Positions 12,637 to 42,408 of a DNA stretch of 64,000 nt are shown here, one piece after another. The notes under the pieces are model-generated. The model was not told the DNA's origin and made no database searches. It worked only from the letters and a program-made list of their open reading frames with translations. The stretch comes from Streptomyces sp. NBC_01317 (GTDB taxonomy: Bacteria > Actinomycetota > Actinomycetes > Streptomycetales > Streptomycetaceae). The stretch lies in assembly GCF_035961655.1 (NCBI RefSeq), contig NZ_CP108393.1:186001-250000 (forward strand), written 5' to 3'. Position 1 is the first letter of the stretch; every line of letters begins with the position of its first letter. The translations under genes were made by a program, and so were the position numbers.

Positions 12637-12702
12637 GGAGCACTCCATTCCGGAGGGGCGGTGCGGGCCTGCGGGTGCCGGGCCGCCGGGAGAAGGATGG
12701 GG

Positions 12703-12738
12703 CCGGTGCGGGGCCCGGGCTTCGGAGCCCCGCACCGG
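12703..12738. terminator. Hairpin between the GH27 and GH95 genes
   Basis: A perfect 12-bp stem (CCGGTGCGGGGC at 12703-12714 with GCCCCGCACCGG at 12727-12738) and a 12-nt loop follows the GH27 stop. It could terminate or attenuate transcription into GH95. No T-run is present. Confidence 0.6.
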
Positions 12739-12761
12739 TGTGGAGAGAGGGCCGCGCGGGA

Positions 12762-27707: not shown

Positions 27708-29297
27708 TTACGCGGCGTTGCTGCGCGGGGCGGCCGACACGGCGGACGCCGCCGACGCCGGGCGCGGGGCGCCGCCGGTCCGGGTGCGGGACGAGGCGCC
27801 CGAGCGGTGACCCTGGCCGCCGGTACGACCGCGACCGCGGCCCGCCGACGTACCACGCTTGCGCTCGGAGACGGGGGCGGTGATGACGACGGGGACGCCG
27901 GACGGGGCCTGGGCGCCGGTGATACGGCTCAGTTCGGCCTCGCCGGAGCGGACCTGGGTGATCTGCGGGGTGATGCCGGCGTCGGCCATCAGGCGGGTCA
28001 TCTCACGGCGCTGGTTCGGCAGGACCAGGGTGACGACACTGCCGGACTCACCGGCGCGGGCGGTACGGCCGCCGCGGTGCAGGTAGTCCTTGTGGTCGCT
28101 GGGCGGGTCCACGTTGACGACGAGGTCGAGGTCGTCGACGTGGATGCCACGGGCGGCGACGTTGGTGGCCACCAGCACGGTGACATGGCCGGTCTTGAAC
28201 TGGGCGAGCGTACGGGTGCGCTGCGGCTGGGACTTGCCGCCGTGCAGCGCGGCGGCGCGCACCCCGCTGTTGAGCAGGTGCTCGGTGAGCCGGTCGACGG
28301 CGTGCTTGGTGTCCAGGAACATCAGCACCCGGCCCTCACGGGCCGCGATCTCGGTGGTGGTGGCGTACTTGTCGGCGCCGTGGACGTGGAAGACGTGGTG
28401 TTCCATCGTGGTGACCGTACCGACCGAGGCGTCGACCGAGTGGACGACCGGGTCGTGCAGGTAGCGGCGCACCAGCAGGTCGACGTTGCGGTCGAGGGTC
28501 GCCGAGAACAGCATCCGCTGCCCGTCGGGCCGCACCTGGTCGAGCAGTGCGGTGACCTGGGGCATGAAGCCCATGTCGGTCATCTGGTCGGCCTCGTCGA
28601 GGACGGTGACGGCGACCCGGTCCAGGCGGCAGTCGCCGCGGTCGATGAGGTCCTTGAGGCGGCCCGGGGTGGCGACGACGATCTCGGCGCCGCCGCGCAG
28701 CGCGCCGGCCTGGCGGCCGATCGACATGCCGCCGACGACCGTGGCCAGGCGCAGGCGCAGCGACCGGGCGTAGGGGGTGAGCGCGTCGGTGACCTGCTGG
28801 GCCAGCTCGCGGGTGGGGACCAGGACCAGGGCGAGCGGCTGCTTCGCCTCGGCGCGCTGTCCCGCGGTGCGGACGAGCATGGCCAGGCCGAAGGCGAGGG
28901 TCTTGCCGGAGCCGGTGCGGCCGCGGCCCAGGACGTCCCGGCCGGCCAGCGAGTTCGGCAGCGTGGCGGCCTGGATGGGGAAGGGCTCGTTCATGCCGAG
29001 GCTGGTGAGCATGTCCGTCAGCGCGGACGGCATGTCCAGCTCCGCGAAGCTCGTCACGGCCGGCAGCGCGGGGGTGAGGGTCACCGGCAGGGCGAATTCG
29101 CCCTGGACGGCGGAGGGGCGGCGCCCGTAGGAGCCACCGGAGCCGCCGTTGCGGCTCGAACCGCCGGAGCGGCCGGGGGCACCCGAACGGGTAGGTGCGG
29201 CACCGGAGCGGAAGCGGCCGGCGCCGTTGCCGGTGGAGCCGGAGCCGCCGCCCGTACGGGTACGGGAGTAGCGGTCGTTCGTGCGTGTGCGGTTCAT
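27708..29297 (-). CDS. DEAD-box ATP-dependent RNA helicase
   Basis: 529 residues. An Arg/Gly/Ser-rich N-terminus (about 85 residues) and a similar C-terminal tail flank a complete DEAD-box core: Q motif (FPIQAATLP), Walker A GRTGSGKT, PTRELA, TPGRL, VLDEADQM, LFSATL, VLVATNVAARG and HRGGRTARAGESG. It unwinds structured RNA, probably during cold adaptation, judging by the adjacent cold-shock gene. The RG-rich tails are typical of cold-shock helicases and may bind RNA. ATG 29297 has AAAGG 8 nt upstream, right after a hairpin that partly covers it. Confidence 0.93.
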   Translation of the reverse strand: MNRTRTNDRYSRTRTGGGSGSTGNGAGRFRSGAAPTRSGAPGRSGGSSRNGGSGGSYGRRPSAVQGEFALPVTLTPALPAVTSFAELDMPSALTDMLTSLGMNEPFPIQAATLPNSLAGRDVLGRGRTGSGKTLAFGLAMLVRTAGQRAEAKQPLALVLVPTRELAQQVTDALTPYARSLRLRLATVVGGMSIGRQAGALRGGAEIVVATPGRLKDLIDRGDCRLDRVAVTVLDEADQMTDMGFMPQVTALLDQVRPDGQRMLFSATLDRNVDLLVRRYLHDPVVHSVDASVGTVTTMEHHVFHVHGADKYATTTEIAAREGRVLMFLDTKHAVDRLTEHLLNSGVRAAALHGGKSQPQRTRTLAQFKTGHVTVLVATNVAARGIHVDDLDLVVNVDPPSDHKDYLHRGGRTARAGESGSVVTLVLPNQRREMTRLMADAGITPQITQVRSGEAELSRITGAQAPSGVPVVITAPVSERKRGTSAGRGRGRTGGQGHRSGASSRTRTGGAPRPASAASAVSAAPRSNAA

Positions 29298-29307
29298 ATC
29301 CGAACCT

Positions 29308-29332
29308 TTCTCGATGCGGCACGTATCGAGAA
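29308..29332 (-). promoter_or_regulatory. Leader hairpin touching the helicase ribosome site
   Basis: TTCTCGAT and ATCGAGAA form an 8-bp perfect stem with a 9-nt loop in the mRNA leader. The right arm ends in GAGAA, directly continuous with AGG of the ribosome site, so folding would partly hide it. Confidence 0.5.
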
Positions 29333-29490
29333 TTCTTGGCAGGGGTGACCGCACAGAGAATCGCAAGAACGAGCCGGAATTTCGTTGAACGGAGCCACGC
29401 CGGGGCGAAAAGGGCCTGAGCCGGCGTATTTGGTCTCTCGTCGCCCGACGCGGCCGTTACGGCGGTCCGGGCGGGTCCTGCAAAAAGCAA

Positions 29491-29530
29491 CGAGCTGGGG
29501 TCCGCATCCCAAGGAGCGGACCCCAGCTTG
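29491..29530 (-). terminator. Terminator of the cold-shock gene
   Basis: AGCTGGGGTCCGC (29493-29505) pairs perfectly with GCGGACCCCAGCT (29516-29528), extendable at the ends by a G-T and a C-G pair. It lies 16 bp past the cold-shock stop. The helicase gene therefore needs its own promoter in the 29298-29490 interval. Confidence 0.8.
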
Positions 29531-29545
29531 TCATGCGCCTAAGCG

Positions 29546-29749
29546 TCAGGCGGGAACGATGTTCTCCGCCTGCGGGCCCTTCTGGCCCTGCGTGACGTCG
29601 AAGTTCACCTTCTGGCCCTCCTGGAGCTCGCGGAAGCCCTGGGCGGCGATGTTCGAGTAGTGGGCGAAGACGTCAGCGCCGCCACCGTCCTGCTCGATGA
29701 AGCCGAAACCCTTTTCCGCGTTGAACCACTTGACGGTACCACTGGCCAT
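29546..29749 (-). CDS. Cold-shock domain protein
   Basis: 67 residues, a complete single cold-shock domain: [17 protein letters not shown] carries RNP1 (KGFGFI), and DVFAHYSNI is RNP2. It binds single-stranded nucleic acid and acts as an RNA chaperone. AAGGAG lies 7 nt before ATG 29749; the upstream in-frame ATG at 29797 lacks a site. A leader of about 165 nt precedes it, with hairpins, as expected for a cold-shock mRNA. Confidence 0.96.
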
Positions 29750-30164
29750 TTTGATCTCCTTCGGGGCAATGTGCCCGGAGGTCCGCACTGTGCGCACCCC
29801 ACGTCGCCGCGATGATTACCCCGTCCGGAAGAAATCCGGAAATACAAAAGTGCACCTACCGGCACATAAAGCCGGGAAGAGCACTTGAAGTCTTTGGGAA
29901 CCACAACTGCAACTGAGATCAACAGTAGCACGGTGCATGTGGACGAGCACGGCAGGTGTTATCACTCCGCCTGCCGTGCCATAAATACTGACCGCGCATC
30001 GACGCTATTTCTGTACTCGCCGCCATAGATATCGCACGGATCCCGGCCGGCCCTTCGTACACGGATTTCCTGGTGTCGCCGCCGGGTGCGGCCGCCGTGG
30101 CGCACGTACGGTGGCCGCGACGATTGACGGGTCCTTCCGCCGGTTCCGGTCCTGGGGTGGCGCC
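29750..30164. promoter_or_regulatory. Divergent regulatory region with a long cold-shock leader
   Basis: This 415-bp gap holds no gene. On the minus strand a TACTGT -10 at 29927-29922 would give a leader of about 165 nt for the cold-shock gene. Within it, TCCGGA-N5-TCCGGA (29824-29840) forms a 6-bp stem. Upstream, a perfect 10-bp inverted repeat (GCACGGCAGG at 29947-29956, CCTGCCGTGC at 29970-29979) with a 13-nt spacer could be an operator or terminator. No clear promoter for the + strand gene is visible. Confidence 0.5.
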
Positions 30165-30806
30165 ATGTGCTGGAGTGCGACGGCCAATCTCGTGGCGGGC
30201 GCCGCGATCGCCTCGGTCGGCGTGGCGTGTGTGGCGCGCGTGCGCCGGGCCCGCGATCTGCCGCTCGCCGCGCTGCCGCTGCTCCTGGGCGCCCACCAGA
30301 TCACCGAGGCCGTCGTGTGGGACGGCGGCGGGGGCACCGGGGCCGCCACGCTCGCCTGGGCGGTGGTGGCGCTGCCGCTCCTGGCGGTGTGGGTGCCCCT
30401 GGGCGTCCTGCTGGCCGCCCAGGGGCACGCCAGGCGCCGGCTGGTGGTGCCCGCCGTGCTCGGGCTCGCCGTCGCCGGTGTCCTCGCCTTCCAGCTGTCC
30501 GCGGGGACCGTACGGGCGGAGGTGCGCGGTCACACCGTCGGGTACGTCCTCGACCTTCCGGACGCGCCCGTGGTCGTGGCGGGCTATCTGCTCGCCACGC
30601 TCGGGGCCCTGCTCCTCGCCGGCGATCCCCTGCTCCGGCTGCTCGGCGGGACGGTCGCGGCCGGGGCGGTCGTGTGCGCCCTGCTGTGGCGGCTGGAGTT
30701 CGTCTCCACCTGGTGTGCGGTCGCCGCGGTGGCGTCGGTCATGCTCCTCGGCTGGGTGGGGCGTACGGTCGGGGAGTTCACGCCCCACGACGCCGGAACA
30801 CACTGA
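30165..30806 (+). CDS. DUF6629-like polytopic membrane protein
   Basis: 213 residues, mostly hydrophobic, about seven membrane helices. The start MCWSATANLVAGAAIASVGV and the following LPLAALPLLLGAHQITEAVV match a family I know as DUF6629, widespread in Streptomyces. Conserved MCWS, HQ and a late EFVSTWC could be functional, but no activity is known. ATG 30165 is internal to a longer frame (from 30111), chosen because family members start MCWS. No co-transcribed partner is evident. Confidence 0.7.
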   Translation: MCWSATANLVAGAAIASVGVACVARVRRARDLPLAALPLLLGAHQITEAVVWDGGGGTGAATLAWAVVALPLLAVWVPLGVLLAAQGHARRRLVVPAVLGLAVAGVLAFQLSAGTVRAEVRGHTVGYVLDLPDAPVVVAGYLLATLGALLLAGDPLLRLLGGTVAAGAVVCALLWRLEFVSTWCAVAAVASVMLLGWVGRTVGEFTPHDAGTH

Positions 30807-30987
30807 ACTCCCTTACCAGGGGCCCCTGCAGAGGCGGACACGGTCACCGGCGGGGCGGGCTCGGGCCGTTCGGATCCCGGTCCGGGGTGTCAAGGATTAC
30901 TCAATACACAACAACACACCTTAGGCTGCGGTACAGAGGTCACCCTCGTGGGACAACAGCGGTGGCCCGGAACGGAAGGCAGCCACC

Positions 30988-31668
30988 ATGACCACCACAT
31001 CCGGAGCGCCCGGGAACCCCGGCAGCATCGACGCGACGACCGCGCTGTTGCAGGCCGAACTCCCGCGGCTGGAAGAGCACCAGCAGACACTGGAGAAGGA
31101 TCTCGCCGCGGTCACCGAGCGGCTCGAGTCCGTGCGCGCCGCGCTGAGCGCGCTGCGGGCCCTGTCCCTCGCGCCCGAGCTCCAGGAGGCCGAGCAGGCC
31201 GCGGCGGCGGCCGTGCCGGCGCCGGTCGCGGAGGCCGCCGCGCCGGTGGCACAGGACACCACCGACGTGACGGTCGGGACGGCCGCCCCGGCGGGTCGCA
31301 AGGCGGCCTCCGGCATCAAGCGGAAGCTGCCCGCGGCGGGGCCCAAGAAGCAGGGCCAGACCCGGCCGCCGGCCAAGAAGAACACCGCCTCGAAGCGCGT
31401 GAAGGCGGCGAAGCCCGCCAAGGCCGCGCCCGTCGAGCAGTCGGCGGACGACACGTCCGAGTCGGCCGGCGGCCTCACGGAGCAGGTCATCCAGATCCTG
31501 GCCGACGCGGGCGACTCACCGGTGCGGGCGCGCGACGTGGCGGCGAAGCTGGGCCGCGACGACAGCCCCGGCAGCATCAACGCCGTTCGCAGCACGCTCG
31601 ACCGGCTGGTGGCCACCTCCCGCGCCCACCGCGCGGGCCGGGGCCTCTACCAGTCGCCGGGCAACTGA
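30988..31668 (+). CDS. Coiled-coil / Lys-Ala-rich / winged-helix protein
   Basis: 226 residues in three parts. Residues 25-75 form a coiled coil (ELPRLEEHQQTLEKDLAAV and onward). Residues 105-150 are a Lys/Ala/Pro-rich, histone-H1-like linker (KAASGIKRKLPAAGPKK; RVKAAKPAKAAP). Residues 160-226 form a winged helix (LTEQVIQILADAGDSPVRA; NAVRSTLDRLVATSRA). This suggests a dimeric DNA-binding protein, perhaps nucleoid-associated or a regulator. GGAAGG lies upstream of ATG 30988. No target or partner gene is obvious. Confidence 0.7.
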   Translation: MTTTSGAPGNPGSIDATTALLQAELPRLEEHQQTLEKDLAAVTERLESVRAALSALRALSLAPELQEAEQAAAAAVPAPVAEAAAPVAQDTTDVTVGTAAPAGRKAASGIKRKLPAAGPKKQGQTRPPAKKNTASKRVKAAKPAKAAPVEQSADDTSESAGGLTEQVIQILADAGDSPVRARDVAAKLGRDDSPGSINAVRSTLDRLVATSRAHRAGRGLYQSPGN

Positions 31669-31819
31669 CCGGGGCGCCCGGCGGGCGCAGGGTGGGGCAG
31701 AACGCGTTTCCGTCCTGATTTCGCAACAGGCCGTGTCCGGCCGGGACAAGATGCGTAATGTCTGGCACCTCGCGCCCGCCTCGTCGTGCGGCGCCCCACC
31801 CGGAACAGGACGTTCTGCC

Positions 31820-32269
31820 ATGCCCCGTACCCGCATAGCCGTCACCGCCGCCGCCACCGCGGCCGCCACCTTGTTCATGTTCCCCGGCCAGGCCCAGGCC
31901 GCCGGATCCGTGCACCTCACGAAGATCTGGTACAACTCCCCGGGTTCGGACAGCCGTTCCAACGCCAGCCTCAACGGCGAGTGGGTCCAGATCAAGAACA
32001 CCACCACCAAGTCGGTGAGCCTCAAGGGCTGGACGCTCACCGACGCCTCCAAGCACGCCTATACGTTCGGTACGTTCACGCTCAAGGCCGGTAAGACCGT
32101 CACGGTGAAGACCGGCAAGGGCACGAACACCGCCGCGACGGTGTTCCAGAAGCGCGGCGCCTACGTCTGGAACAACGACAAGGACACCGCGACCCTGCGG
32201 CGCGCCACCAAGGCCGTTCAGGACACGTGTGCGTACAACGCCCCGAAATCCTCCTCCAAGGCCTGCTGA
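31820..32269 (+). CDS. Secreted lamin-tail-domain protein
   Basis: 149 residues: signal peptide MPRTRIAVTAAATAAATLFM with cleavage after QAQA, then one immunoglobulin-like lamin tail domain (VHLTKIWYNSPGSDSRSNAS; LNGEWVQIKNTTTKSVSLKG; FTLKAGKTVTVKTGKG), ending with a Cys pair that may form a disulfide. Bacterial LTD proteins are exported and thought to bind surface or nucleic-acid-like ligands. ATG 31820 follows AGGAC. It stands alone, about 115 bp before the biosynthetic-type operon, which it is unlikely to belong to. Confidence 0.85.
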   Translation: MPRTRIAVTAAATAAATLFMFPGQAQAAGSVHLTKIWYNSPGSDSRSNASLNGEWVQIKNTTTKSVSLKGWTLTDASKHAYTFGTFTLKAGKTVTVKTGKGTNTAATVFQKRGAYVWNNDKDTATLRRATKAVQDTCAYNAPKSSSKAC

Positions 32270-32373
32270 GCCGTAACCGGCCCTCCTCCAACTCGCGCCG
32301 CCCCGCCGGGAACTCGACGGCGGTGGCAGCCGACCACTGAAGGAGAAGGTGAGCCGGAAGGGCCGTGAGGTCC

Positions 32374-32382
32374 AGGAGGAGG
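32374..32382 (+). promoter_or_regulatory. Ribosome binding site setting the methyltransferase start
   Basis: AGGAGGAGG lies 3-6 nt before tandem GTG codons at 32386 and 32389. This argues against the in-frame GTG at 32365 as the start. Confidence 0.55.
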
Positions 32383-32385
32383 GCC

Positions 32386-33132
32386 GTGGTGTTGAAGTGG
32401 TACGAGGACGAATCTCTCTGGTCCGACTTCGCTTCCACGATGTTCTCGGCCGACCGGGGTGAGACGGTGGCCGAACTCGTGAGCTCCTCCCCCCTCCTGG
32501 ACTTCCCGCCGGGCACCCGGGTCCTCGACCTGTGCTGCGGTCCCGGGCTGTTCCTCGTCCCGCTGGCCCGCCGCGGCTACGCCGTCACCGGGGTCGACCT
32601 CAGCCCGTCCCTGCTGGAGCGGGCCACGGGCGCGTGCGCGGAGGCGGAGGTCGACGTACGGCTCGTGCGGGCCGACATGCTCGCGTACGCCGATCCCGGC
32701 GCGTTCGACGTCGTGCTCAACGTCTTCACGTCGTTCGGCTACTTCGACGACCCCGAGGACAACCTCCAGGTGCTGCGCAACGCGTGGGCGAGCCTCGCGC
32801 CCGGCGGGCGGCTGCTGGTCGACGTGATGGGCAAGGAGGTGCTGGCAGGCTGGATCGGCCGGCCGCAGGCGGTCGACCTCCCGGACGGCTCGTACGTGGT
32901 GCAGCGTGACGTCGTCCTCGACAGCTGGCGCCGGCTGCGGACCGACTGGACGCTGGTGCGCGGCACGACGGCCCGTACCGCCTCGATCATCTCCTTCCTC
33001 TACAGCGGCGCCGAACTCCACGACCTGTTCGAGGCGGCCGGCTTCACCGATGTCGAGTGTTTCGGCGGCTTCGACGGCTCTCCTTACGACCAGCACTCCC
33101 GGCGCCTGATCGTCAGGGGGACCAGGAAATGA
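32386..33132 (+). CDS. Class I SAM-dependent methyltransferase
   Basis: 248 residues. Motif I is VLDLCCGPGLFLVPLARRGY, followed by GVDLSPSLLERA, an acidic residue motif RADMLAYADPGAFDVVLNVF and LAPGGRLLVDV. It methylates a small molecule or peptide at O, N or C; the substrate is not evident. GTG 32386 follows AGGAGGAGG. The stop overlaps the next ATG by 4 nt (ATGA). As first gene of a four-gene unit with a PLP enzyme, ATP-grasp ligase and exporter, it is likely a tailoring enzyme for the product. Confidence 0.85.
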   Translation: MVLKWYEDESLWSDFASTMFSADRGETVAELVSSSPLLDFPPGTRVLDLCCGPGLFLVPLARRGYAVTGVDLSPSLLERATGACAEAEVDVRLVRADMLAYADPGAFDVVLNVFTSFGYFDDPEDNLQVLRNAWASLAPGGRLLVDVMGKEVLAGWIGRPQAVDLPDGSYVVQRDVVLDSWRRLRTDWTLVRGTTARTASIISFLYSGAELHDLFEAAGFTDVECFGGFDGSPYDQHSRRLIVRGTRK

Positions 33133-34256
33133 GGGCCCGGGACGTCATGGCGCCGGACCTCGACTACGCCGTCGCCGCTCCCCCGGCGTCCGCGTCCGTA
33201 CCGGCGTCGGCCTCCGTGCCCGCACCCGTGCACGCGCACATCACCGACGCGATGAAGGCGCCGGACCTGATCAGGCTGGGCGACAACATCGTGCTGGCCC
33301 GGTTCGAGACGATGAAGGTGTACGCGGCGCTCGGCGCCGTCCGCGCCCTGCTGCGCGCGGGCCGGGTCGTCCCGGGCCAGACGCTCGTGGACAGTTCGAG
33401 CGGCATCTACGCGCTGGCCCTCGCGATGGCCTGCCACCGCTACGGCCTGCGCTGCCACATCGTGGCCTCCACGACCGTCGACGCGGTGATGCGCGCGCAG
33501 TTGGAGGTGCTCGGCGCGACCGTCGACCAGATGCCGCCGTCGAGCAGCCTGCGGCTGGACCAGGAGCGGCGGGTGCGGCACGTACGTCAACTGCTGGCGG
33601 AGCGGCCGGACTTCCACTGGATGCGGCAGTACCACGACCCCGTGCATTATGCCGGCTACGGCGAGTTCGCCGGTCTGGTCTCCGAGGCTCTGCCCGACGC
33701 CGAGCTGACGGTGGTCGGCGCGGTGGGTACGGGCGCGTCCACCGGCGGTCTGGTGCAGGCGCTGCGCGGGTCCGGGCGGTCGGTGCGGCTGGTGGGAATC
33801 CAGCCGTTCGGCAGTGTGACCTTCGGCAGTGAGCGGTTCAGCGACCCGGAAGCGATCATCGCGGGCATCGGCAGCTCCATCCCGTTCGAGAACGTGCGGC
33901 ACGAGCTGTACGACACACTCCACTGGGTGGACTTCCGCCATGCCATGGCGGGTGCGGTGGGCCTGCTGCGGGACCACGCGGTGTTCGCCGGGCTGTCCAC
34001 CGGGGCGGCCCACCTGGTCGCCTCGTGGGAGGCGGCCCTCGATCCCGGGCGGCAGCATCTTGTCATCGGCGCCGACACCGGACACCGGTACGCGGAAAGG
34101 GTGTTCGCCCGGCACGCGGAGGCGCTGGACCGGTCGTCGCTGCGGCCCCGGCGGATCACGGACCTGGACGAACTGCGGCCACCGTGGTCGGTGATGGAGT
34201 GGGCCGGGCGGGCCCACCAGGAGTCCGGCGCGACGCCGGCGGAGGAGGTCTCATGA
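33129..34256 (+). CDS. Cysteine-synthase-like PLP enzyme with an altered Asn loop
   Basis: 375 residues of fold-type II, close to cysteine synthase/cystathionine beta-synthase. The PLP lysine is probably Lys63 in ETMKVYAALG, and the cofactor phosphate loop is GAVGTGASTGGL. The loop that is SSGN in ordinary family members reads SSSGIYAL (residues 90-97): the Asn contacting the PLP ring is Ile here. A 45-residue Ala/Pro/Ser-rich N-terminus precedes the core. It could make a non-proteinogenic amino acid (for example a beta-substituted alanine) or catalyse elimination. ATG overlaps the methyltransferase stop; ATGA overlaps the ATP-grasp start. Confidence 0.8.
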   Translation: MRARDVMAPDLDYAVAAPPASASVPASASVPAPVHAHITDAMKAPDLIRLGDNIVLARFETMKVYAALGAVRALLRAGRVVPGQTLVDSSSGIYALALAMACHRYGLRCHIVASTTVDAVMRAQLEVLGATVDQMPPSSSLRLDQERRVRHVRQLLAERPDFHWMRQYHDPVHYAGYGEFAGLVSEALPDAELTVVGAVGTGASTGGLVQALRGSGRSVRLVGIQPFGSVTFGSERFSDPEAIIAGIGSSIPFENVRHELYDTLHWVDFRHAMAGAVGLLRDHAVFAGLSTGAAHLVASWEAALDPGRQHLVIGADTGHRYAERVFARHAEALDRSSLRPRRITDLDELRPPWSVMEWAGRAHQESGATPAEEVS

Positions 34257-35485
34257 CGGTGGTGGCGCTGGAGGCGCTGTCCTTCGGACTGGCCAGGACG
34301 GCCGCCGCCGCGGCGTCCGCCGGGCACCGGCTGTGCCTGCTCACCGGTGACCGGTCGGTCTACCGGCACGAGCTGGACACACTGCCGCCCGGTACGGCCC
34401 TGGACGTGGTGGACGTCGACACGTTCGACGTGGACGCCACCCGGCGGGCGTTCGCCGCCGTGCCCGGGGTCGCGGGGATCATCAACACCACCGACACGTG
34501 GAGTGTGCCGGCGGCGCTGCTCGCCGCCGAGTACCGGCTGCCGGGGCCCGATCCGGAGTCCGTACGGCTGCTGCGGGACAAGGCGCGGGTACGGGATCTC
34601 CTGCACGGCAAGGGCCTGGGCAAGAGCCCCGCCCTGCGGGTGGCCCCCGACCCCGCGAGCGCGGCGGAAGTGCTAGGTACGGTCGGCCTGCCGGTGGTCC
34701 TCAAGGACGCGTCGGGCACCTCGTCGCGTGACGTCTGGGTGGTGCGGGACGAGGAGGCGCTGCGCGCCGCGCTCGGCGAGGCGGGACAACGCGCCCTCAC
34801 CGGGGGGCTGTTCGCCGAGCCGTTCCTGTCCGGTCCGCTCTACAGCGCGGAGACGATCAGCTGGGACGGGGAGAGCCGGCTGCTGGGGGTGCTCAGCCGG
34901 CAGACCTCGCGGGAGCCCGCCGTACGGGAGGAGGCCGCGGCCTTCCCCGTCGTGTTCCCGCACGGCGGACTCGGCGAGATCGAGGAGTGGGTGGGGCGGG
35001 TCCTGCACACCGCGGGGCACCACAGCGGCTTCGCGCACGTCGAGTTCGTCCTCACCTCCGAGGGGCCGCAGCTGGTCGAGATCAACCGGCGGATCGGCGG
35101 TGCGCTGGTCGGTGAGGCGCTGTGCCTGTCACTGGGGACCAATGTGTACGAGGCCGTGATCGAGGTGGCGCTGGGTGTACGGCCCGCGCTGATGGACGCC
35201 CGCCTCGGACACACGGGCCCCGCCAGCGGCTTTGTCCTCGTGTACGCGGACCGGCCCGGCGTCCTGACCGGCTGGCGCGGGCTCGACGGGCTGGGCGACT
35301 ACCCAGGCTCGGTGCGGTGGTTCCCGACGCGGGCGCCGGGGGACACGGTGCGGTACGTGCACGACCAGCGCGGCTGTACGGGCATCGTGCTGGCGGAGGG
35401 CGCCACCGCGGAACTGGCGCTGCACCGGGCGCTCAGCGCCGCCGGGGGTGTGCGGGCCGTTGTCGCGGCCGACGACGGCCTGTGA
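34253..35485 (+). CDS. ATP-grasp carboxylate-amine ligase
   Basis: 410 residues. The N-terminal Rossmann-like domain is followed by the ATP-grasp fold: VVLKDASGTSSRDVWVV with the ATP-binding Lys and Gly/Ser loop, AEPFLSGPLYSAET, and the metal-binding HVEFVLTSEGPQLVEINRR with its Glu and Asn pair. Enzymes of this group (bacilysin BacD, carnosine synthase and the D-cycloserine ligase DcsG are known relatives) form amide or peptide bonds through an acyl phosphate. GAGGAGG precedes ATG 34253, which overlaps the PLP gene; the stop overlaps the MFS start (GTGA). It likely joins the PLP-enzyme product to a second amine or amino acid. Confidence 0.88.
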   Translation: MTVVALEALSFGLARTAAAAASAGHRLCLLTGDRSVYRHELDTLPPGTALDVVDVDTFDVDATRRAFAAVPGVAGIINTTDTWSVPAALLAAEYRLPGPDPESVRLLRDKARVRDLLHGKGLGKSPALRVAPDPASAAEVLGTVGLPVVLKDASGTSSRDVWVVRDEEALRAALGEAGQRALTGGLFAEPFLSGPLYSAETISWDGESRLLGVLSRQTSREPAVREEAAAFPVVFPHGGLGEIEEWVGRVLHTAGHHSGFAHVEFVLTSEGPQLVEINRRIGGALVGEALCLSLGTNVYEAVIEVALGVRPALMDARLGHTGPASGFVLVYADRPGVLTGWRGLDGLGDYPGSVRWFPTRAPGDTVRYVHDQRGCTGIVLAEGATAELALHRALSAAGGVRAVVAADDGL

Positions 35486-36822
35486 GGGCGGGGCCGGTGG
35501 CGGGGGCGGGTCCCGGCCATGGGGCCTCCGACGGGGATGAGCCCCGGGCCGGTGCGCGGCTCCGGTCGGGGCCCCGGTCGTTCCTGCTGGCTGCCTCGTT
35601 CCTGATCACGCTGGGCAGCTTCGCCGTCCTGCCGTACATGTCGGTGGTGCTGCACCAGCGGCTGGGTCTCGGCCTCGGCACGGTCGGTGTGGTGCTGGCC
35701 GTCGCCTCGCTGGTGCAGTTCTCCGGCGGGGTGGTGGGCGCGGCGCTGGCCCGGCGCATCGGGCTGCGGGCCACGATGCTGGTGGCGCTGGCGGTCCGTA
35801 CGGCGGGCTTCGCCGCGTTCGTGCCGGGGCTCGGCAGTCCGGTGGCGTCGGTCGGCGCGCTGTTCCTGGTGTCCTGCGGGGCGGCGTTGTATCTCCCGGC
35901 GAACAAGGCGTATCTCGTGGAGGGGGCGCCGGAGCGGGACCGGCCGCGGCTGCTGTCGGCGAGCGGTTCGGCGTTCAACGCGGGGATCGCGCTGGGGCCT
36001 CCGCTGGCGGCGCCCTTCGTGCTGAGTTCACCGGCCGCGCTGTTCACCGTGGTCAGTGTGCTGTTCGCCGCCGTGGGGGTGGGGCATCTGCTGCTCCCGG
36101 CGGTGGTCTCCCCCGAGGCCGCTCCGGACGAGGGCGCTCCGGACGAGGGCGCTCCGGAGAAGAGCGCTCCCGGCGTGAAGCCGGGTGCCGGGGACGGTGT
36201 CCTGCCCTTCCTCGTCACCGTCGTGAGCGTGTACGTCTTCATGTTCTTCCAGCACTACCTGGCGCTGTACGCGGTCCCCCGCACCTCGGCCTCCTTCTAC
36301 GGCGTCGTGCTGATGGCGTACGCGGGCCTCCTCGTCGTCGCGCAGCCGCCGCTGTCCCGGTGGATCGCCGGGCTCACCTACCCGGGCGCGATGCGGGTGG
36401 GGTTCGGCGCCATGGCGGCCGGGACGGCGGTCATCGGGACGGGCGGGTACGCGGGCATCGGGGCGGGGGCCGCGCTGATCTGCCTGGGTGAGCTGGTGCT
36501 CTTCCTCAAGAACGACCTGGAGGCCCTGGCCCGGTCGTCGGCGCCCCCGGCCACGGTCTTCGGCCGGCAGCGGCTGGCGGCGGGCATCGGGGCGTTCGCG
36601 AGCGGGGTGGTCGGCGGGCAGCTGTACGGCGTGGCCGAACAGGCGGGCTCCGCAGGGGCGTTCTGGGGCGTGGTGTCGCTCCAGTGCGTGGTGCTGCCCG
36701 TGGTGCTGACGGCGGCGGTGCGTCACCGGTACGGCGGGTCCGCCGCGCGGACCGGTGACGCACCGGGTGTCAGGCCGGTTGCCCGGCGAGGACCGCGCCG
36801 TCGGCCTGCCAGACCGAGGTGA
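35482..36822 (+). CDS. MFS transporter of the ATP-grasp operon
   Basis: 446 residues, about 12 membrane helices in two halves separated by a Pro/Glu/Asp-rich cytoplasmic loop with repeated APDEGAPDEGAPEK. The MFS loop-2 signature is present as ALARRIGLRATMLVALAV. GTG 35482 overlaps the ATP-grasp stop by 4 nt, so it is the last gene of the unit and the likely exporter (or self-resistance pump) of its product. Its tail overlaps the end of the convergent sigma-factor gene by 53 bp. Confidence 0.85.
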   Translation: MRAGPVAGAGPGHGASDGDEPRAGARLRSGPRSFLLAASFLITLGSFAVLPYMSVVLHQRLGLGLGTVGVVLAVASLVQFSGGVVGAALARRIGLRATMLVALAVRTAGFAAFVPGLGSPVASVGALFLVSCGAALYLPANKAYLVEGAPERDRPRLLSASGSAFNAGIALGPPLAAPFVLSSPAALFTVVSVLFAAVGVGHLLLPAVVSPEAAPDEGAPDEGAPEKSAPGVKPGAGDGVLPFLVTVVSVYVFMFFQHYLALYAVPRTSASFYGVVLMAYAGLLVVAQPPLSRWIAGLTYPGAMRVGFGAMAAGTAVIGTGGYAGIGAGAALICLGELVLFLKNDLEALARSSAPPATVFGRQRLAAGIGAFASGVVGGQLYGVAEQAGSAGAFWGVVSLQCVVLPVVLTAAVRHRYGGSAARTGDAPGVRPVARRGPRRRPARPR

Positions 36823-37441
36823 GGTCGCGCCGGGCCCGTGCGACGCGCGAACGGACCGTACCGACGGGGCAGTCGGCGGCGACGGCGGCCTCCGCGTAGG
36901 ACAGGCCGAGGAGTTGGGTCAGGACGAAGGCCTGGCGGCGCGGCCCGTTCATCGTGTCGAGGAGGTCGTACACCGCCACGCTCTCGTCGAAGCCGGGCAG
37001 ATGGCGTGGCTGGGCGCGCTCGGCGGCCAGTTGCCAGTCCGTGGTGTCGGCGACCCGGGGTCTCGCGGCGGCGCTGCGGTAGCGGTCGACGACGACACAC
37101 CGGGCGATCGACAGCAGCCAGGTCCTGGCGCAGGAGCGGCCGGCGAACTTGGCCAGGCCGGTCAGGGCCCGTACGTAGGTCTCCTGGGCCAGGTCGTCGG
37201 CGCCGGGCACGTCACCGCTGAGGTGGGCGACAAACCGCCGCACGTCGTCGTACGTGGCGCGGACGAAGTGCTCGGCGGCCTCCCGGTCACCGCGTCCTGC
37301 GGCCAGCGCCCAGGCGGTGACGCGGTCGTCCCGGTGGCTGTCATGGCGGGTGGTGGCACGGACGGGGGCGGGAACGGGCTTGACGGGCCGGGCAGTTGTG
37401 GGGGACATCGTGGGGGGAATCGTGGTCGGGGCAGTGAACAT
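36770..37441 (-). CDS. ECF (RpoE-type) sigma factor
   Basis: 223 residues. A 45-residue Thr/Pro-rich extension precedes region 2 (FVRATYDDVRRFVAHLSGDV; ADDLAQETYVRALTGL) and region 4 (RRQAFVLTQLLGLSYAEAAV; GTVRSRVARARRDL). It directs polymerase to specific promoters. No anti-sigma gene is adjacent, so regulation is unclear. ATG 37441 has AAGGA about 9 nt upstream, and ATG 37408 is an alternative. Neighbouring membrane genes (Met/His-loop protein and ferric-reductase-like protein) are plausible targets. Confidence 0.88.
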   Translation of the reverse strand: MFTAPTTIPPTMSPTTARPVKPVPAPVRATTRHDSHRDDRVTAWALAAGRGDREAAEHFVRATYDDVRRFVAHLSGDVPGADDLAQETYVRALTGLAKFAGRSCARTWLLSIARCVVVDRYRSAAARPRVADTTDWQLAAERAQPRHLPGFDESVAVYDLLDTMNGPRRQAFVLTQLLGLSYAEAAVAADCPVGTVRSRVARARRDLTSVWQADGAVLAGQPA

Positions 37442-37579
37442 CGCAAAGAGTCCTTCGCGTCCTCGTGGGCCGTCCCGGACGGGATCGGGCCCCCTCGGTG
37501 GCCGGGCTCCGGGCCGTGCGGGTCACCGGAGCGGGGCATGACGGTGTACTCCCCCGGCCGCGGGCGGACAGGCGCCGGC

Positions 37580-37600
37580 GGCCCGGCGGTGTGCCGGGCC
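37580..37600 (-). terminator. Hairpin downstream of the Met/His-loop membrane gene
   Basis: GGCCCGGC (37580-37587) and GCCGGGCC (37593-37600) form an 8-bp perfect stem with a 5-nt loop, 19 bp past the stop. Confidence 0.55.
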
Positions 37601-37618
37601 GTGAAGAGGCAGGGGGGT

Positions 37619-38314
37619 TCAGCGGCAGGACGGAAGGAGCGGTGGGCCACGCCGGGAGGCGGAGTCCAGCACGACACGACGGCCGGGGCGCCGTGGCGCC
37701 CGGTGCGGGACGGTGGGACGGGCGGCGGGCAGGCGGTGTCCGGCGGCGGGCCGGGACAGGACCCGCCAGGCCAGGCGGAGCGGGGAGCCGATGAACAGGG
37801 CCAGGCTGCGGGCGAGTTGGCCGACCGCGGTCTCGCCCCGCCACAGCCACCAGCCGCACAGCAGACCGGCGAGCAGGTGGGCGGCCGCCATGCCCGCGGT
37901 CGGGGAGTGACCGTCGTACGCCATCGTCAGCGCCATCAGGTCGGCGGACTCCGCGCTCATCTCCTGGTGCGCGTGGGCCATGCTCATCGTCATGCCGGAC
38001 CGGCCGCCACCGGAGGCACCGGCCGTCCCCGCCGTACCGGACGCCGGCAGACAGAGCGGAAGCACACCGAACAGGTAGTGCAGGACCGCCTGTCCGACCG
38101 CGGACGCGGCCACGACCACCGGGGCGCCGCGATCCCGGCCCGTCAGCCACCAGCCCGCGCCGAGCACCATCACGAAGGCGCCGCCCAGCGCGGGTAACGG
38201 AACGGGACCGCCCGAGCTGAGGGCGTGGCCGAGCCCGGACACCGCTACGCACACGGCAGCGAAGATCGCGGCACGTGTGAGACGGAGTGCGGGCCCGGCT
38301 CTCATGGCGGTCAT
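37619..38314 (-). CDS. Polytopic membrane protein with Met/His-rich loop and a TTA codon
   Basis: 231 residues with about four or five hydrophobic helices (FAAVCVAVSGLGHALSSG; LGGAFVMVLGAGWWLTG; VVVAASAVGQAVLHYLFG; GMAAAHLLAGLLCGWWLW). The loop at about residues 105-125 (GMTMSMAHAHQEMSAESADL) is rich in Met and His, typical of copper or haem handling. Codon 40 is TTA (38197-38195), the leucine codon read only by the bldA tRNA in Streptomyces, so its translation may be development-dependent. ATG 38314 (MTAM) is chosen with GAGTGG upstream. It is divergent from the ferric-reductase-like gene. Family not identified. Confidence 0.72.
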   Translation of the reverse strand: MTAMRAGPALRLTRAAIFAAVCVAVSGLGHALSSGGPVPLPALGGAFVMVLGAGWWLTGRDRGAPVVVAASAVGQAVLHYLFGVLPLCLPASGTAGTAGASGGGRSGMTMSMAHAHQEMSAESADLMALTMAYDGHSPTAGMAAAHLLAGLLCGWWLWRGETAVGQLARSLALFIGSPLRLAWRVLSRPAAGHRLPAARPTVPHRAPRRPGRRVVLDSASRRGPPLLPSCR

Positions 38315-38400
38315 CGTGCCACTCGCGCGGGAGCATCGGAAAAGGGCAGCCGATCCTGATACGTCGCCAGTTCGCCCGCTAAGAAAGGACAACACTTCCC

Positions 38401-38416
38401 TGTGATCCATGTCACA
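38401..38416. promoter_or_regulatory. Crp-type palindrome TGTGA-N6-TCACA
   Basis: TGTGATCCATGTCACA matches the E. coli CRP consensus half-sites and also the GTG-N6-GNCAC pattern I recall for Streptomyces Crp. It lies between the divergent starts at 38314 and 38512, within reach of both promoters. Confidence 0.65.
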
Positions 38417-38427
38417 CAACAGCGCGG

Positions 38428-38455
38428 GGAACTTTTCCGGTACGCGGGCCGACTC
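38428..38455 (+). promoter_or_regulatory. Possible ECF-type promoter GGAAC-N18-CGACT
   Basis: GGAAC (38428-38432) and CGACT (38450-38454) have the shape of an ECF promoter. It lies 58 bp ahead of the ferric-reductase-like start and could be read by the adjacent sigma factor. Weak evidence. Confidence 0.3.
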
Positions 38456-38511
38456 CTCGGGAGACGCGCGTGTCCCCGCTCCGCCCCACGCCACCGAGAA
38501 AGCCGTTACCC

Positions 38512-39558
38512 ATGAAGCCGACCCCAGCGCCCGCCGCCCCCGATCCGGCCGGCCGATCCGCAGAAGCCGACACGGCCGCGGAATCCGACACCGCCACCGG
38601 GTCCGACCCGACCGCCGAGGCGGCCGAGGCCGAACGTACCGCAGACCGCTCGCGGGGCCGGGTCACACTCCGCTCGGATCTGCGCGCCTCCATACCCGAC
38701 GGCCTGATCGCCCTGGTCCTGACCGCGGCGGTCTTCGCGCTGATCTACGCCCGTATCAAGGCGAAGACGTCCTCGACCGTGACCGTGATGCCGTTCATGG
38801 CCGACGCGGGCGGCTTCTGGATGTACTTCCTCAGCCAGGCCTTCGGCTGGACCGCCCTCCTGTGGGCGTGGACCACCGTCGTCCTCGGACTCCTGCTCGG
38901 GGGCTCCACACCCCGCTGGCTGCCGATGTCGGCCCCGCGCCTGGAACGTCTCCACCGCACCACGAGCCTCAACACGATCGCCCTGATCTTCGCCCATGCC
39001 CTGCTGTTCGCGGCGGAGTTGGTGCGCCACGACACCGCGCGCTGGAACTCCGCCGTCTACACCGCGTTCGTCGAGGCGTTCGTCCCGGGCGGGTACGACT
39101 CCGGGACCGGCGTGTGGGCGATGCCGATCGGGCAGGCCGCGCTCTACGTGGCGATCCCTCTCGGACTGCTCTTCTACGTCAGGCACCGGATCGGTCCCAA
39201 GACCTGGCGGGTCCTGCACCGCTTCGTGATCGTCGTGTACGTCCTGAGCGTGTGGCACGTCCTCCTCTACGGCACCAACGTCTGGTACGACGGGTGGTTC
39301 CGCACGACCGTGTGGCTGCTCCAACTGCCCATCGCCGCGCTCCTGCTGGTGCGCCTGCTGCTTCCCGCGCGACGCTCCGAGAAGCTGGCGCGGCCCGGTG
39401 CCCACACCGGCTCGGCGGCGGGCTGGGCCCTGCGGTTCACCGGCCGGTTCGCGGCGGCCGCCGTCATCGCGGCCCTGCTCGCCATCATGATCAGCGGCAG
39501 CGACGGCGGCCGCACGGTCCCCCCGGAGGACACCTCGTCCACCCACAACCACGACTGA
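38512..39558 (+). CDS. Ferric-reductase-like transmembrane haem protein
   Basis: 348 residues. A Pro/Ala/acidic cytoplasmic N-terminus (about 55 residues) precedes six or so helices of the ferric-reductase-like (YedZ/FRE) fold. Two helices each carry a His pair 13-14 residues apart, LHRTTSLNTIALIFAH and LHRFVIVVYVLSVWH, the usual bis-His haem ligands. It probably passes electrons across the membrane to iron or another acceptor; no flavin domain is attached, so a partner reductase is needed. ATG 38512 is chosen as start, with GAGAAAG upstream. It ends in a HNHD tail. Confidence 0.82.
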   Translation: MKPTPAPAAPDPAGRSAEADTAAESDTATGSDPTAEAAEAERTADRSRGRVTLRSDLRASIPDGLIALVLTAAVFALIYARIKAKTSSTVTVMPFMADAGGFWMYFLSQAFGWTALLWAWTTVVLGLLLGGSTPRWLPMSAPRLERLHRTTSLNTIALIFAHALLFAAELVRHDTARWNSAVYTAFVEAFVPGGYDSGTGVWAMPIGQAALYVAIPLGLLFYVRHRIGPKTWRVLHRFVIVVYVLSVWHVLLYGTNVWYDGWFRTTVWLLQLPIAALLLVRLLLPARRSEKLARPGAHTGSAAGWALRFTGRFAAAAVIAALLAIMISGSDGGRTVPPEDTSSTHNHD

Positions 39559-39594
39559 GGCGGGGGCGGTCGGGGCCCTCTCCCCACCCGTACC

Positions 39595-39807
39595 TCACGA
39601 TCCGCCTGGTACGTCCCGGTGGTCGAGGAGCCCGCCGAGCGCGGCGGCGGGGGTTGTCGCCGCCGCGTTCCGCTCGGACGCCGGGGACATCGTCGTGGTC
39701 CGTCCCGGCTGGAGCCGGTGCGGGGCGCCGGGGCGCCGGCCGAGCCCGACGATGACACGAGCGGCCTCGACGGGATCGCCGGGCCGGGCGTGGTTGCTGC
39801 GCAGGGC
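39595..39807 (-). pseudogene. C-terminal remnant of a short-chain dehydrogenase
   Basis: In this frame the peptide ALRSNHARPGDPVEAARVIV, followed by APHRLQPG, reads like the C-terminal 60-70 residues of an SDR oxidoreductase (typical pattern NGxQPGDPxKAAxAI...PxRLxLG). No Rossmann or YxxxK part is found upstream, where the AraC gene begins to overlap. It looks like a degraded fragment that used to sit next to the regulator. Confidence 0.5.
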
Positions 39808-39914
39808 ACACTCACGGCTCACCCCCACGGTCGCCGCCTCGTCGCCGACCGCCGCCTTCGCCCGCGTCGGGGAACGCGAGCGCAGTGCGGTGGTGTCGCG
39901 GGCGGTCGTTCGGC

Positions 39915-40865
39915 TCACCTGCTGTCGCGCCATTCGCGCGGGGACATCCCGTACGCCTCCTTGAAGACGCGGCCGAAATGGCTGGCGTTGCCGAACCCCC
40001 AGCGCCGGGCGACCGACGCGATCGTCACGGCTCCCGCGCCCGGCCGCGCGAGGTCCCTGCGGCAGTTCTCCAGCCGGTGCGTCCTGATCCAGTCGCCGAG
40101 GTGGACGCCGGAGCGGGCGAGGATCGCGTACAGATGCCGTACGGACACGTTGTGCCGGCGTGCGATGCGGGCGGCGGTCAGGTCGTGGTCGGCGAGATGC
40201 GCGCGTACGTACTCCATGATCCGTACGTCCAGGGTGGCTTCGAGCGGCTCGCGCGCCGGCCGGGGGTCGGGGAGCCGGGAGGTGAGGGCCGCCCGGATCA
40301 GTTCGATGCTGGCGGTGCCGACGGCGTCCGCGACCGTGAGGTCAGGGACGTGCGGGGTCTCGGCCAGCCGGCGCAGATAGGTCGCCGCGAGGTCGGCCAT
40401 CGGGTGCTCCGTACCGAACCGCAGTGCGGTGAGCCGCCCGAGCGCGTCCGCCGGGAGGGCCAGATCGCTCTGCGCCATGCGGAAGAAGTGCTGGTGGATC
40501 CCCTGCGGCTGGAGCAGCGTGTACGGGACGGTGGTGTCGTAGATCGCGAAGTCGCCGGGCCGCAGCACCGCCTCGCGGCCTCCCTGGACCACCATGCTGG
40601 TGCCGGACACCTGGAGGCCGAGGAACACGCTGGGCGGCAGATCGTCCCGGGCGAGCCGGGGGGTGCGCCGGACGGTGGTGGCGTTGGCCGCGACGGAACA
40701 GACGTTGAGCCGTCCCACGTCGCTGATCACACCGCACACGGCGATGCGGTCGGGCTCCGGCTGGTGTTCGATCTCGACCCGGACGACTGTGTTCCAGATC
40801 GCCTCGCGGATCGCCTCGGCCCGCTCGGCCGGCGCCACCTGCCGCACATCGAGGATGACCACCAT
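39915..40865 (-). CDS. AraC-family transcriptional regulator
   Basis: 316 residues. The N-terminal cupin-like sensing domain (residues 40-190; VFLGLQVSGTSMVVQGGREA; LRPGDFAIYDTTVPY) is followed by two helix-turn-helix units (LTAARIARRHNVSVRHLYAI; VARRWGFGNASHFGRVFK) ending in YGMSPREW, the AraC signature. This is the AraC-binding-like/HTH_18 type common in Streptomyces oxidative-catabolism loci. ATG 40865 has AGAAGG upstream. Its ancestral target may have been the SDR now reduced to a remnant immediately downstream. Confidence 0.88.
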   Translation of the reverse strand: MVVILDVRQVAPAERAEAIREAIWNTVVRVEIEHQPEPDRIAVCGVISDVGRLNVCSVAANATTVRRTPRLARDDLPPSVFLGLQVSGTSMVVQGGREAVLRPGDFAIYDTTVPYTLLQPQGIHQHFFRMAQSDLALPADALGRLTALRFGTEHPMADLAATYLRRLAETPHVPDLTVADAVGTASIELIRAALTSRLPDPRPAREPLEATLDVRIMEYVRAHLADHDLTAARIARRHNVSVRHLYAILARSGVHLGDWIRTHRLENCRRDLARPGAGAVTIASVARRWGFGNASHFGRVFKEAYGMSPREWRDSR

Positions 40866-41031
40866 CCGGCAACCACCTTCTGAACTCGCTCCACGCTGTC
40901 GGCCAGGGCGGGCCGAGTCTATCCGGCGAGGGGGCGGGCGCCGGGGGCTGGAACCGTCGCGGCCCCGGCACGCGTTCTCCTCACAGCGCCGTACGAACCG
41001 GCGTGTTCGGCGAACGGGACGGGTGGTGCCG

Positions 41032-42408
41032 ATGACCGAGTTGGTTCCCGGGGGGAATCTGCCGCTGCCGGACGGGGCGCTGACGATCCAGGTGCCCGGC
41101 CCCTTCGACCTGTCCGTCCTGATCACCGGAGACGGCGGGAAGGTGGCCGGTGACGAGGACTTCGTGTTCTACAACCAGCCGTCGGCCCCCGGGGTCCGGC
41201 TCGGCTCCGGCACCGTCCGGGTGGACCCCCGGCGGCTGCGGGCCGGGGCCGGGCGGCTCACCGTCGTCGTGAGCGCGGCCGATCCGGGTGTCCCGCTCGG
41301 CCGGCTGCCCGTTCCGGCGCTGACGGTCAGCGGCGAGGGCCGGGGTGTCCTGGCCCGGTTCACGCCCGTACGCCCGACGCGTGAGACGGTCCTGCTGCTG
41401 GCGGAGATCTACCGGCGGGGCTCCGCGTGGAAGCTGCGCGCGCTGGGACAGGGGTACGCGGACGGGCTGGGCGGGATCGCCCGTGACTTCGGGGTGGACG
41501 TGGCGGAGGAGGCGGGGGCACCCGCCGCCGTGTCCCCGACGCCGGCCGCATCTCCTGTACGCGCAGCGACCCCGGCCCGCACCACACCTCGGCCGCCCGC
41601 CTCCCCGCAGGCGGCCCTCGCGGACGGTACGGAGGCGGAGTTCGCCGCCCTTGTCCGTACCGAACGGCTCGGGGCCGGCGCCCCGCCCGTGATCGTCGAA
41701 CCCCGGCTCTCGGCGGCGGCCCGAGCCCATGCCGAGGCCATGGCACGGCAGGGCCGGCTGGGCGCGGAGGCGCCGGACGGGACATCGGTCTTCCAGCGGA
41801 TCACGGCGGGCGGGTACCGCTATCTCCGGATCGAGCAGCAGCTGGTCTCAGGACCCCGTACACCGCGTGAGTTCCTGGACTACTGCCGGTCCAACGCCTC
41901 GACCCGAGGTCCGCTGCGGGACTCCGCGTTGACCGACGCCGGGATCGGGCGGGCGGTCGACCCGCGCTCCGGCGACCTCTGCTGGACGGCGCTGTGGGCC
42001 CGGCCCTTCACCGCCGAGGGCCTGGTCAGGATCACGGCCGAGGTGCTCGCCCTGACGAACGCGGAGCGTGGCGCGGCCGGGCTCCGGCCGCTGGCCCCCG
42101 ACCGGCGGCTGGCCGACGCCGCGCAGACGTACAGCGTGGACATGGCCGCGCGGGCCTTCTACTCCCACACCTCACCCGAGGGGCTCGCTCCGTGGGACCG
42201 GGCGGCCGCCGCGGGCGCGCCCCACCGGGGCATCGGCGAGAACATCGCCTGCGGGCAGCGGACGGCGGCCGAGGTGCTGGAGGGGTGGATGAACAGCCCC
42301 GGGCACCGGGCGAACATCCTCAAGCCGGACTTCACCCACCTCGGCGTGGGGTACGCGGGCGGCGGCCCGGCGGGCACGTACTGGACGCAGCTCTTCGGCC
42401 GGATGTGA
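41032..42408 (+). CDS. TerD domain fused to two CAP/SCP domains
   Basis: 458 residues without signal peptide. Residues 1-165 are a TerD-like calcium-binding domain (PFDLSVLITGDGGKVAGDED; VLLLAEIYRRGSAWKLRA), a Thr/Pro/Ala linker follows to about 205, then a degenerate CAP repeat (LSAAARAHAEAMARQGRLG) and a second, well-kept CAP domain (TNAERGAAGLRPLAPD; FYSHTSPEGLAP; WMNSPGHRANIL). The CAP His/Glu pair is in SHTSPEG and GIGENIAC. TerD proteins are cytoplasmic stress proteins, while CAP domains are usually secreted, so the fusion is unusual. ATG 41032 is chosen; the upstream frame lacks a site. No partner ter genes nearby. Confidence 0.8.
   Translation: MTELVPGGNLPLPDGALTIQVPGPFDLSVLITGDGGKVAGDEDFVFYNQPSAPGVRLGSGTVRVDPRRLRAGAGRLTVVVSAADPGVPLGRLPVPALTVSGEGRGVLARFTPVRPTRETVLLLAEIYRRGSAWKLRALGQGYADGLGGIARDFGVDVAEEAGAPAAVSPTPAASPVRAATPARTTPRPPASPQAALADGTEAEFAALVRTERLGAGAPPVIVEPRLSAAARAHAEAMARQGRLGAEAPDGTSVFQRITAGGYRYLRIEQQLVSGPRTPREFLDYCRSNASTRGPLRDSALTDAGIGRAVDPRSGDLCWTALWARPFTAEGLVRITAEVLALTNAERGAAGLRPLAPDRRLADAAQTYSVDMAARAFYSHTSPEGLAPWDRAAAAGAPHRGIGENIACGQRTAAEVLEGWMNSPGHRANILKPDFTHLGVGYAGGGPAGTYWTQLFGRM

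Follow-up and report, generated by a model that had tools for sequence, protein, structure and literature searches.

A four-gene Streptomyces operon that probably directs copper-starvation chalkophore synthesis without nonribosomal peptide synthetases

Within a 64,000-nucleotide stretch of the Streptomyces sp. NBC_01317 genome (positions 186,001 to 250,000 of contig NZ_CP108393.1, the single contig of an 8.07-Mb assembly; hereafter the window), four closely packed genes encode a methyltransferase, a pyridoxal phosphate (PLP) enzyme, an ATP-grasp ligase and a transporter of the major facilitator superfamily (MFS). We consider it probable that this operon makes and exports a small copper chelator, a chalkophore, independently of nonribosomal peptide synthetases (NRPS) and in response to copper starvation. 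A promoter motif, a SigC-like sigma factor, a ferric-reductase-like gene and, in part of the relatives, importer genes together point to metal acquisition, and most likely to copper. Few classes of bacterial chalkophore are known: isonitrile lipopeptides, methanobactin-type ribosomally synthesised and modified peptides, and few others. Chalkophore operons under copper regulation are known, and neither an account of this biosynthetic type nor a described product turned up in the open-licence literature, with the proviso that a description published elsewhere could have been missed. An earlier sequence-only reading of this DNA had named the operon as its best candidate for an undescribed pathway.

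The four reading frames lie on the forward strand and overlap by 4 nucleotides at each junction (ATGA, ATGA and GTGA). They encode an S-adenosylmethionine-dependent methyltransferase (32386..33132; Methyltransf_25, 68 bits), a PLP enzyme of the CysK/SbnA fold (33129..34256; PALP, 109.7 bits), an ATP-grasp ligase with an L-amino-acid-ligase C-terminal domain (34253..35485; ATP-grasp_4, 33.9 bits with a cut-off of 27; LAL_C2, 59.7 bits with a cut-off of 29.4) and an MFS transporter that is a putative exporter (35482..36822; MFS_1, 70.3 bits). All of these Pfam matches are above cut-off, none of the four proteins reaches an NCBIfam cut-off, and the nearest NCBIfam models of the MFS protein are efflux transporters with scores under their cut-offs. 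The methyltransferase gene has in-frame start options at GTG 32386, GTG 32389 and TTG 32392, the last of which is an ATG in many homologues. The sequence-only reading had described exactly these genes, junctions and labels as a translationally coupled unit for biosynthesis and export, built around an amino-acid-type PLP enzyme and an amide-forming ATP-grasp enzyme, and the reading frames and domain matches bear this out. Directly upstream of the operon is a small protein with a lamin-tail domain (31820-32269), whose family occurs in six loci including the window.

A scan of genome contigs found 485 stretches encoding relatives of the PLP enzyme, so the unit is not rare; its other genes were looked at in the 80 best of these loci. 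The sequence preceding the methyltransferase gene in these relatives contains a shared SigC-type promoter motif, which in the window reads GGGAAC-N17-CGACC (32308..32335, forward strand, 78 bp upstream of the methyltransferase frame). We counted exact GGGAAC-N17-CGAC matches, also allowing spacings of 16 and 18, in the 400 bp upstream of the methyltransferase gene of 72 of the 80 loci, having dropped those that lacked a methyltransferase match of 55% identity or more or had less than 400 bp of upstream sequence. The motif is present in 67/72 regions, always with a spacing of 17 and at a median of 89 bp from the gene (distances are approximate, as reading-frame starts were called automatically), and the reversed motif is present in 0/72. 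A second copy in the window, GGGAAC-N17-CGACT (38427..38454, forward strand), lies upstream of the ferric-reductase-like gene.

The connection to copper comes from other genomes in which a related sigma factor and the same motif occur together. The most informative locus (L197) belongs to a genome whose PPE proteins suggest a mycobacterium. Its sigma factor scores 227 bits as a SigC equivalog (cut-off 219), one motif stands before a copper-type P-type ATPase gene (500 bits, cut-off 397), and a second precedes genes for a PPE protein, ScoE (477 bits, cut-off 400) and FadD10 (993 bits, cut-off 726), after which there is one more frame, cut at the end of the stretch and without a Pfam match. The NRPS gene of the known diisonitrile cluster comes after FadD10, and the gene order of L197 is, as far as it could be read, that of the diisonitrile chalkophore cluster. 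Here, then, the promoter element found before a ctpB-like gene is also found before a chalkophore-type operon, beside a SigC equivalog. Three further loci of the SigC-bearing family (L196, L201 and L202) have the motif before apparent PPE genes, after which comes a conserved operon. According to one published study, SigC of Mycobacterium tuberculosis prevents copper starvation; ctpB and the nrp operon are considered its direct targets, with near-identical predicted SigC promoter elements before ctpB and ppe1-nrp (PMC7924339). A second study describes diisonitriles as copper-acquiring chalkophores (PMC9600254).

A class-wide search for the sigma factor, in which seven candidates per genome were scored, gave a relative in 16 genomes of one genus (f6/g8), 12 of which were tested for the motif. 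In 6/12 (G054, G227, G299, G366, G374 and G413), a CtpB-like ATPase match divergent from the sigma gene has the CGACT-ending form 76-91 bp upstream, and in two more (G217 and G350) ATPase and sigma genes adjoin although the exact motif is missing. We also surveyed the 34 CtaG genes of 18 genomes with window-type loci, 14 of which are not Streptomyces by record title. At least 5/18 genomes have a second CtaG copy with the motif at its start or a short way upstream, leaving out one ambiguous case (G078). As two of these genomes are closely related and Kibdelosporangium-like, the independent cases number about four. The motif-bearing CtaG proteins have, where scored, a CopD-like N-terminal half (under the CopD cut-offs), and in 4/5 cases a P-type ATPase gene follows. 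Three of these ATPases are over the copper-ATPase cut-off (L156, L157 and L160), and the fourth has HMA and E1-E2 ATPase domains (L158). No motif was found at the three other CtaG copies inspected (L161-L163).

Twenty further sigma loci were picked from the class search by sigma similarity; 18 are from the genus of the window, and one (L224) is itself a window-type cluster. The small protein family F10, described below, is present in 18 of them, and a CtpB-like ATPase in seven, all of the window's genus, with a gene for the copper chaperone PCuAC in the same seven. Several of these loci place the motif before other gene sets. It precedes operons of a substrate-binding protein and FecCD in L210, L211 and L214, a P450 gene followed by a gene of the isonitrile-synthase family (DIT1_PvcA, 251 bits) in L208 (1640-3979), and a P450 gene in L209 (11230-12711); the two P450 loci adjoin a copper-type ATPase gene and a PCuAC gene and are candidate isonitrile chalkophore loci. 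In L207 (11456-14795) and L214 (11300-14578), the motif precedes an MFS gene and, behind it, a gene for an asparagine synthase, a pair that is a candidate for another copper-related small-molecule set. A small Cys-rich protein (FCGNCDCGCPQLFVD) without a Pfam match is encoded near sigma or importer genes in L214 (10953-11267) and L213 (5822-6208). The same promoter thus seems to serve various small-molecule gene sets next to copper genes. A more general proposal, to which we give even odds, is that SigC-type sigma factors of actinomycetes run a copper-acquisition programme with an exchangeable biosynthetic module: a diisonitrile NRPS, a P450 with an isonitrile synthase, an MFS transporter with an asparagine synthase or, as in the window, a PLP/ATP-grasp/methyltransferase route to a new NRPS-free chalkophore class, with a sister family of the PLP enzyme serving zinc under Zur.

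The window itself encodes a SigC-like extracytoplasmic function (ECF) sigma factor on the reverse strand (36770..37441), the 3' end of which runs 53 bp into the MFS gene. Among PDB entries it matches SigC of M. tuberculosis best (2.5e-24), and its paralogues in the same genome are at most 36% identical. In a quick tree, rooted on three own-genome paralogues that have long branches, a branch with a support of 93 parts the window sigma factor and 36 relatives from those paralogues, and two of the 36 exceed the SigC cut-off. Next comes a His/Met-rich small protein of membrane type without a Pfam match (family F10; 37619..38314, in a frame running to 38494, reverse strand). F10 occurs in 29/107 related loci and adjoins the sigma gene in 27/29 loci class-wide, and is possibly a partner of the sigma factor or a sensor. 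The ferric-reductase-like transmembrane protein (family F7; 38470..39558, forward strand; PF01794, 34.2 bits with a cut-off of 28) has its likelier start at ATG 38512, and its family occurs in 29 loci including the window. The sigma gene, its neighbour and the ferric-reductase-like gene appear to be part of the unit, which does away with the earlier claim that the four genes stand without others. Among 61 long loci, 23 lack a sigma gene; of these, 16 were searched genome-wide, and with a threshold of E 1e-30 a sigma relative turned up in 16/16, only about 5 kb past the locus edge in the case of G065. The comparison figure for the class is 85/394 genomes at the looser threshold of 1e-25 (again from seven scored candidates per genome), and as the two sets differ in make-up we regard this difference as support rather than as a test.

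The biosynthetic genes tend to stay together. In the best 80 loci, the PLP enzyme is present in 80, the ATP-grasp enzyme in 78 and the methyltransferase in 75, with many of the contigs being cut, so that these counts are lower bounds and absences are uncertain. The uninterrupted order of methyltransferase, PLP enzyme, ATP-grasp enzyme and MFS is kept in 29/80 loci; the sequence-only reading had proposed gene order as a check and scattered genes as its refutation, and scattering is not what we see in the relatives examined. A FecCD permease and its ATPase, absent from the window, are present within 23/80 loci, where the usual order is methyltransferase, permease, ATPase, binding protein, PLP enzyme and ATP-grasp. 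In many Pseudonocardiales loci, the importer sits between the biosynthetic genes. The genes are thus conserved together, and some of the loci link them with the uptake of metal chelates. One locus (L103, genome G071) comes from a 12.4-Mb genome titled Rhodococcus rhodnii and is very like the Kibdelosporangium loci; the record may be mislabelled.

Uptake genes of this kind raise the question as to which metal is involved. An iron siderophore operon would use its FecCD, ferric-reductase-like and FhuF-like genes for a ferric complex and have a sigma factor of the iron-starvation type. The importers of those 23 loci, the PF01794 gene adjoining the operon and the FhuF gene of Saccharothrix loci could all be explained in this way, but boxes of the IdeR/DmdR type (up to four mismatches to the consensus) were found in only 3/80 window-type loci (L105, L107 and L133), where they lie downstream of the PLP gene rather than ahead of the operon, and the sigma factor and motif occur together with copper-type ATPases, PCuAC and CtaG. 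We therefore regard iron as unlikely. A copper-regulated molecule with a role other than uptake, such as a copper-binding toxin or signal, would fit the contiguous four-gene loci, which keep the exporter and have no importer within the locus; the importer placed among the biosynthetic genes in many Pseudonocardiales loci speaks against it, and we give this explanation only a very slim chance. The sequence-only reading had drawn an analogy to D-cycloserine and bacilysin-type dipeptides, and an amino-acid or dipeptide antibiotic would indeed account for the part list of an ATP-grasp enzyme with LAL_C2, a PLP enzyme and an MFS transporter. The promoter motif, the sigma factor and the ferric-reductase-like gene, the metal-uptake genes that accompany the cluster in part of the relatives and the Zur boxes of sister clusters (see below) favour metal acquisition instead, making an antibiotic most improbable. 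We dropped D-cycloserine and bacilysin for lack of a supporting feature; only generic parts are in common, and no direct cluster comparison was made.

Zinc enters through a sister family of PLP enzymes, 53-61% identical to that of the window. From the fetched loci, we chose a set of 12 sister loci (L033, L034, L043-L051 and L053), leaving out one with a broken PLP gene (L052) and three with other neighbours (L032, L035 and L036). The sister loci have FecCD importers, an MFS gene, a DUF364 gene ('putative heavy-metal chelation') and, in most cases, a GHMP kinase gene as neighbours, and no ATP-grasp neighbour was found among the reference matches. Zur-like boxes, allowing up to three mismatches to the consensus, are present in 8/12 sister loci, with no match in five shuffled sets, and judging from these boxes and neighbours the sister loci are probable zincophore clusters. 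The SigC-type motif precedes a cluster gene in 0/12, and its matches there are located within PLP genes or at a distance from the cluster. The window-type loci are the reverse: with the same threshold Zur-like boxes are present in 0/80 loci and absent from window positions 28001-42000, neither iron nor Zur boxes lie before the operon, and a scan for Nur-type boxes gave one weak match (L040), far from the operon. A chelator for zinc, nickel or cobalt, made under a SigC-like sigma factor that has changed its signal in Streptomyces, could draw on the Zur boxes and FecCD importers of the sister family and on [S,S]-EDDS, which is described as a Zur-regulated zincophore (PMC4993170), but with no Zur-like box in the window-type loci it seems quite unlikely. 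The two families suggest that one PLP enzyme family serves different metals under different regulators. The genome of the window also holds a distant second system (L056; G000:C1:740001-760000, approximately 8545-13254) with a GHMP kinase, an SbnA-like PLP enzyme and an ATP-grasp/argininosuccinate-lyase fusion, which resembles a system on the Mesorhizobium plasmid pMLa (L037).

Some of the chemistry may be read from the enzymes. Among named proteins, those most closely related to the PLP enzyme come from Streptomyces, and its best PDB profile match is SbnA (75.8 bits). An AlphaFold2 model (pLDDT 71) matches CysK, CBS and SbnA structures, which confirms the predicted fold only and says nothing of the substrate. 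K63 aligns with the PLP lysine of SbnA (SMK motif) and Tyr168 with SbnA Tyr152, and Gly200 takes the place of SbnA Ser185 (SbnA residue numbers are from the structure entry title, Y152F/S185G). The score against the SbnA model of 2,3-diaminopropionate synthesis (TIGR03945) is 136.1 of the 349.95 bits required, so that membership of that family is not indicated. Several relatives have a GHMP kinase as neighbour, which would be consistent with a phosphorylated amino acid as substrate. The best PDB matches of the ATP-grasp protein are L-amino acid ligases (top 2.1e-13), and with both ATP-grasp_4 and LAL_C2 over cut-off it has the domains of that family and a predicted catalytic role to match. A natural guess is that the product is a methylated, amide-linked chelator of the aminopolycarboxylate or diamino-acid type.

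Under the copper chalkophore reading, low copper would release the sigma factor, perhaps from the His/Met-rich F10 protein, and the freed sigma factor would transcribe both the operon and the ferric-reductase-like unit. The SbnA-like enzyme could convert a beta-activated serine such as O-phosphoserine to aminoacrylate, to which a nitrogen nucleophile would be added; the ATP-grasp enzyme would couple a second amino acid to this product, with tailoring by the methyltransferase and export of the chelator by the MFS pump. The copper complex may then re-enter by a FecCD-type ABC (ATP-binding cassette) importer, such as the one that some relatives have next to the cluster, and be reduced by the ferric-reductase-like protein.

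Several observations weigh against this reading. The identity of the product, its copper binding and its induction by low copper are what we infer, and the ferric-reductase, FecCD and FhuF neighbours are equally typical of iron. The FecCD importer is absent from all 29 contiguous four-gene loci and from the window locus, which leaves uptake there unexplained. The window sigma factor scores below the SigC equivalog cut-offs (166.6 of 219 bits for NF007231 and 180.9 of 290 for PRK12535), and the motif's tie to SigC rests on co-location in this analysis, rather than on published promoter letters. Five of the 72 upstream regions (L069, L101, L110, L127 and L134) lack the motif, as does the DNA before the ATPase, in its exact form, in 6/12 of the tested genomes. 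With the stricter pattern GGGAACY-N16-CGACY, the genome of the window has 13 exact matches compared with 10 for the reversed pattern; two are those in the window, one is intergenic (L147), and the other ten fall within called reading frames, including L142, which is antisense in an uncertain gene call that closer inspection supports. No copper gene was found under any of the 13, so that copper-handling genes sharing the regulon within one genome are seen in relatives and not in the genome of the window. The intergenic match (G000:C1, 7362163-7362190) lies between a SpoIIE/GAF-domain gene, upstream of which it stands, and a response-regulator gene, and could be due to chance or mark a third member of the regulon.

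If the copper reading is correct, copper chelators would have a simple genetic source in a four-gene route that is spread over Streptomyces and Pseudonocardiales, and the type of sigma factor that responds to copper starvation in M. tuberculosis would control a wider actinomycete programme. The promoter motif offers a handle for finding further sets of genes for copper acquisition, and the Zur boxes of the sister clusters suggest the adaptation of one enzyme family to several metals.

Compared with known systems, the closest regulatory likeness is to the SigC regulon and diisonitrile (nrp) operon of mycobacteria: the ECF sigma factors are related, the same GGGAAC-N17-CGAC element stands before ScoE-FadD10 in L197, and the literature places small-molecule biosynthesis under copper-starvation control there (PMC7924339, PMC9600254), as we infer for the window. 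The chemistry differs, as the window unit uses PLP, ATP-grasp and methyltransferase enzymes and has no NRPS, ScoE or acyl ligase, and the regulon differs in that the genome of the window shows no copper ATPase under the motif and its sigma factor is below the SigC cut-off. SbnA, the enzyme of the staphyloferrin B precursor (grouped here with CmnB), has the same fold as the window PLP enzyme, is its nearest PDB profile and shares the aligned lysine and tyrosine; the window enzyme departs from it in its sub-cut-off TIGR03945 score and in Gly200 for Ser185, and no SbnB or NRPS-independent siderophore (NIS) synthetase is among the family matches of the four genes. The [S,S]-EDDS cluster of Amycolatopsis japonicum, compared here by its description, likewise makes a chelator that is said to come from neither an NRPS nor a NIS route, and was found via its metal regulator (PMC4993170); that cluster is regulated by Zur, whereas window-type loci have no Zur box. 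Finally, bacterial L-amino acid ligases such as BL00235 have ATP-grasp and LAL_C2 domains in common with the window ligase, but the similarity is weak, and the genomic setting of the window enzyme suggests a function in metal acquisition.

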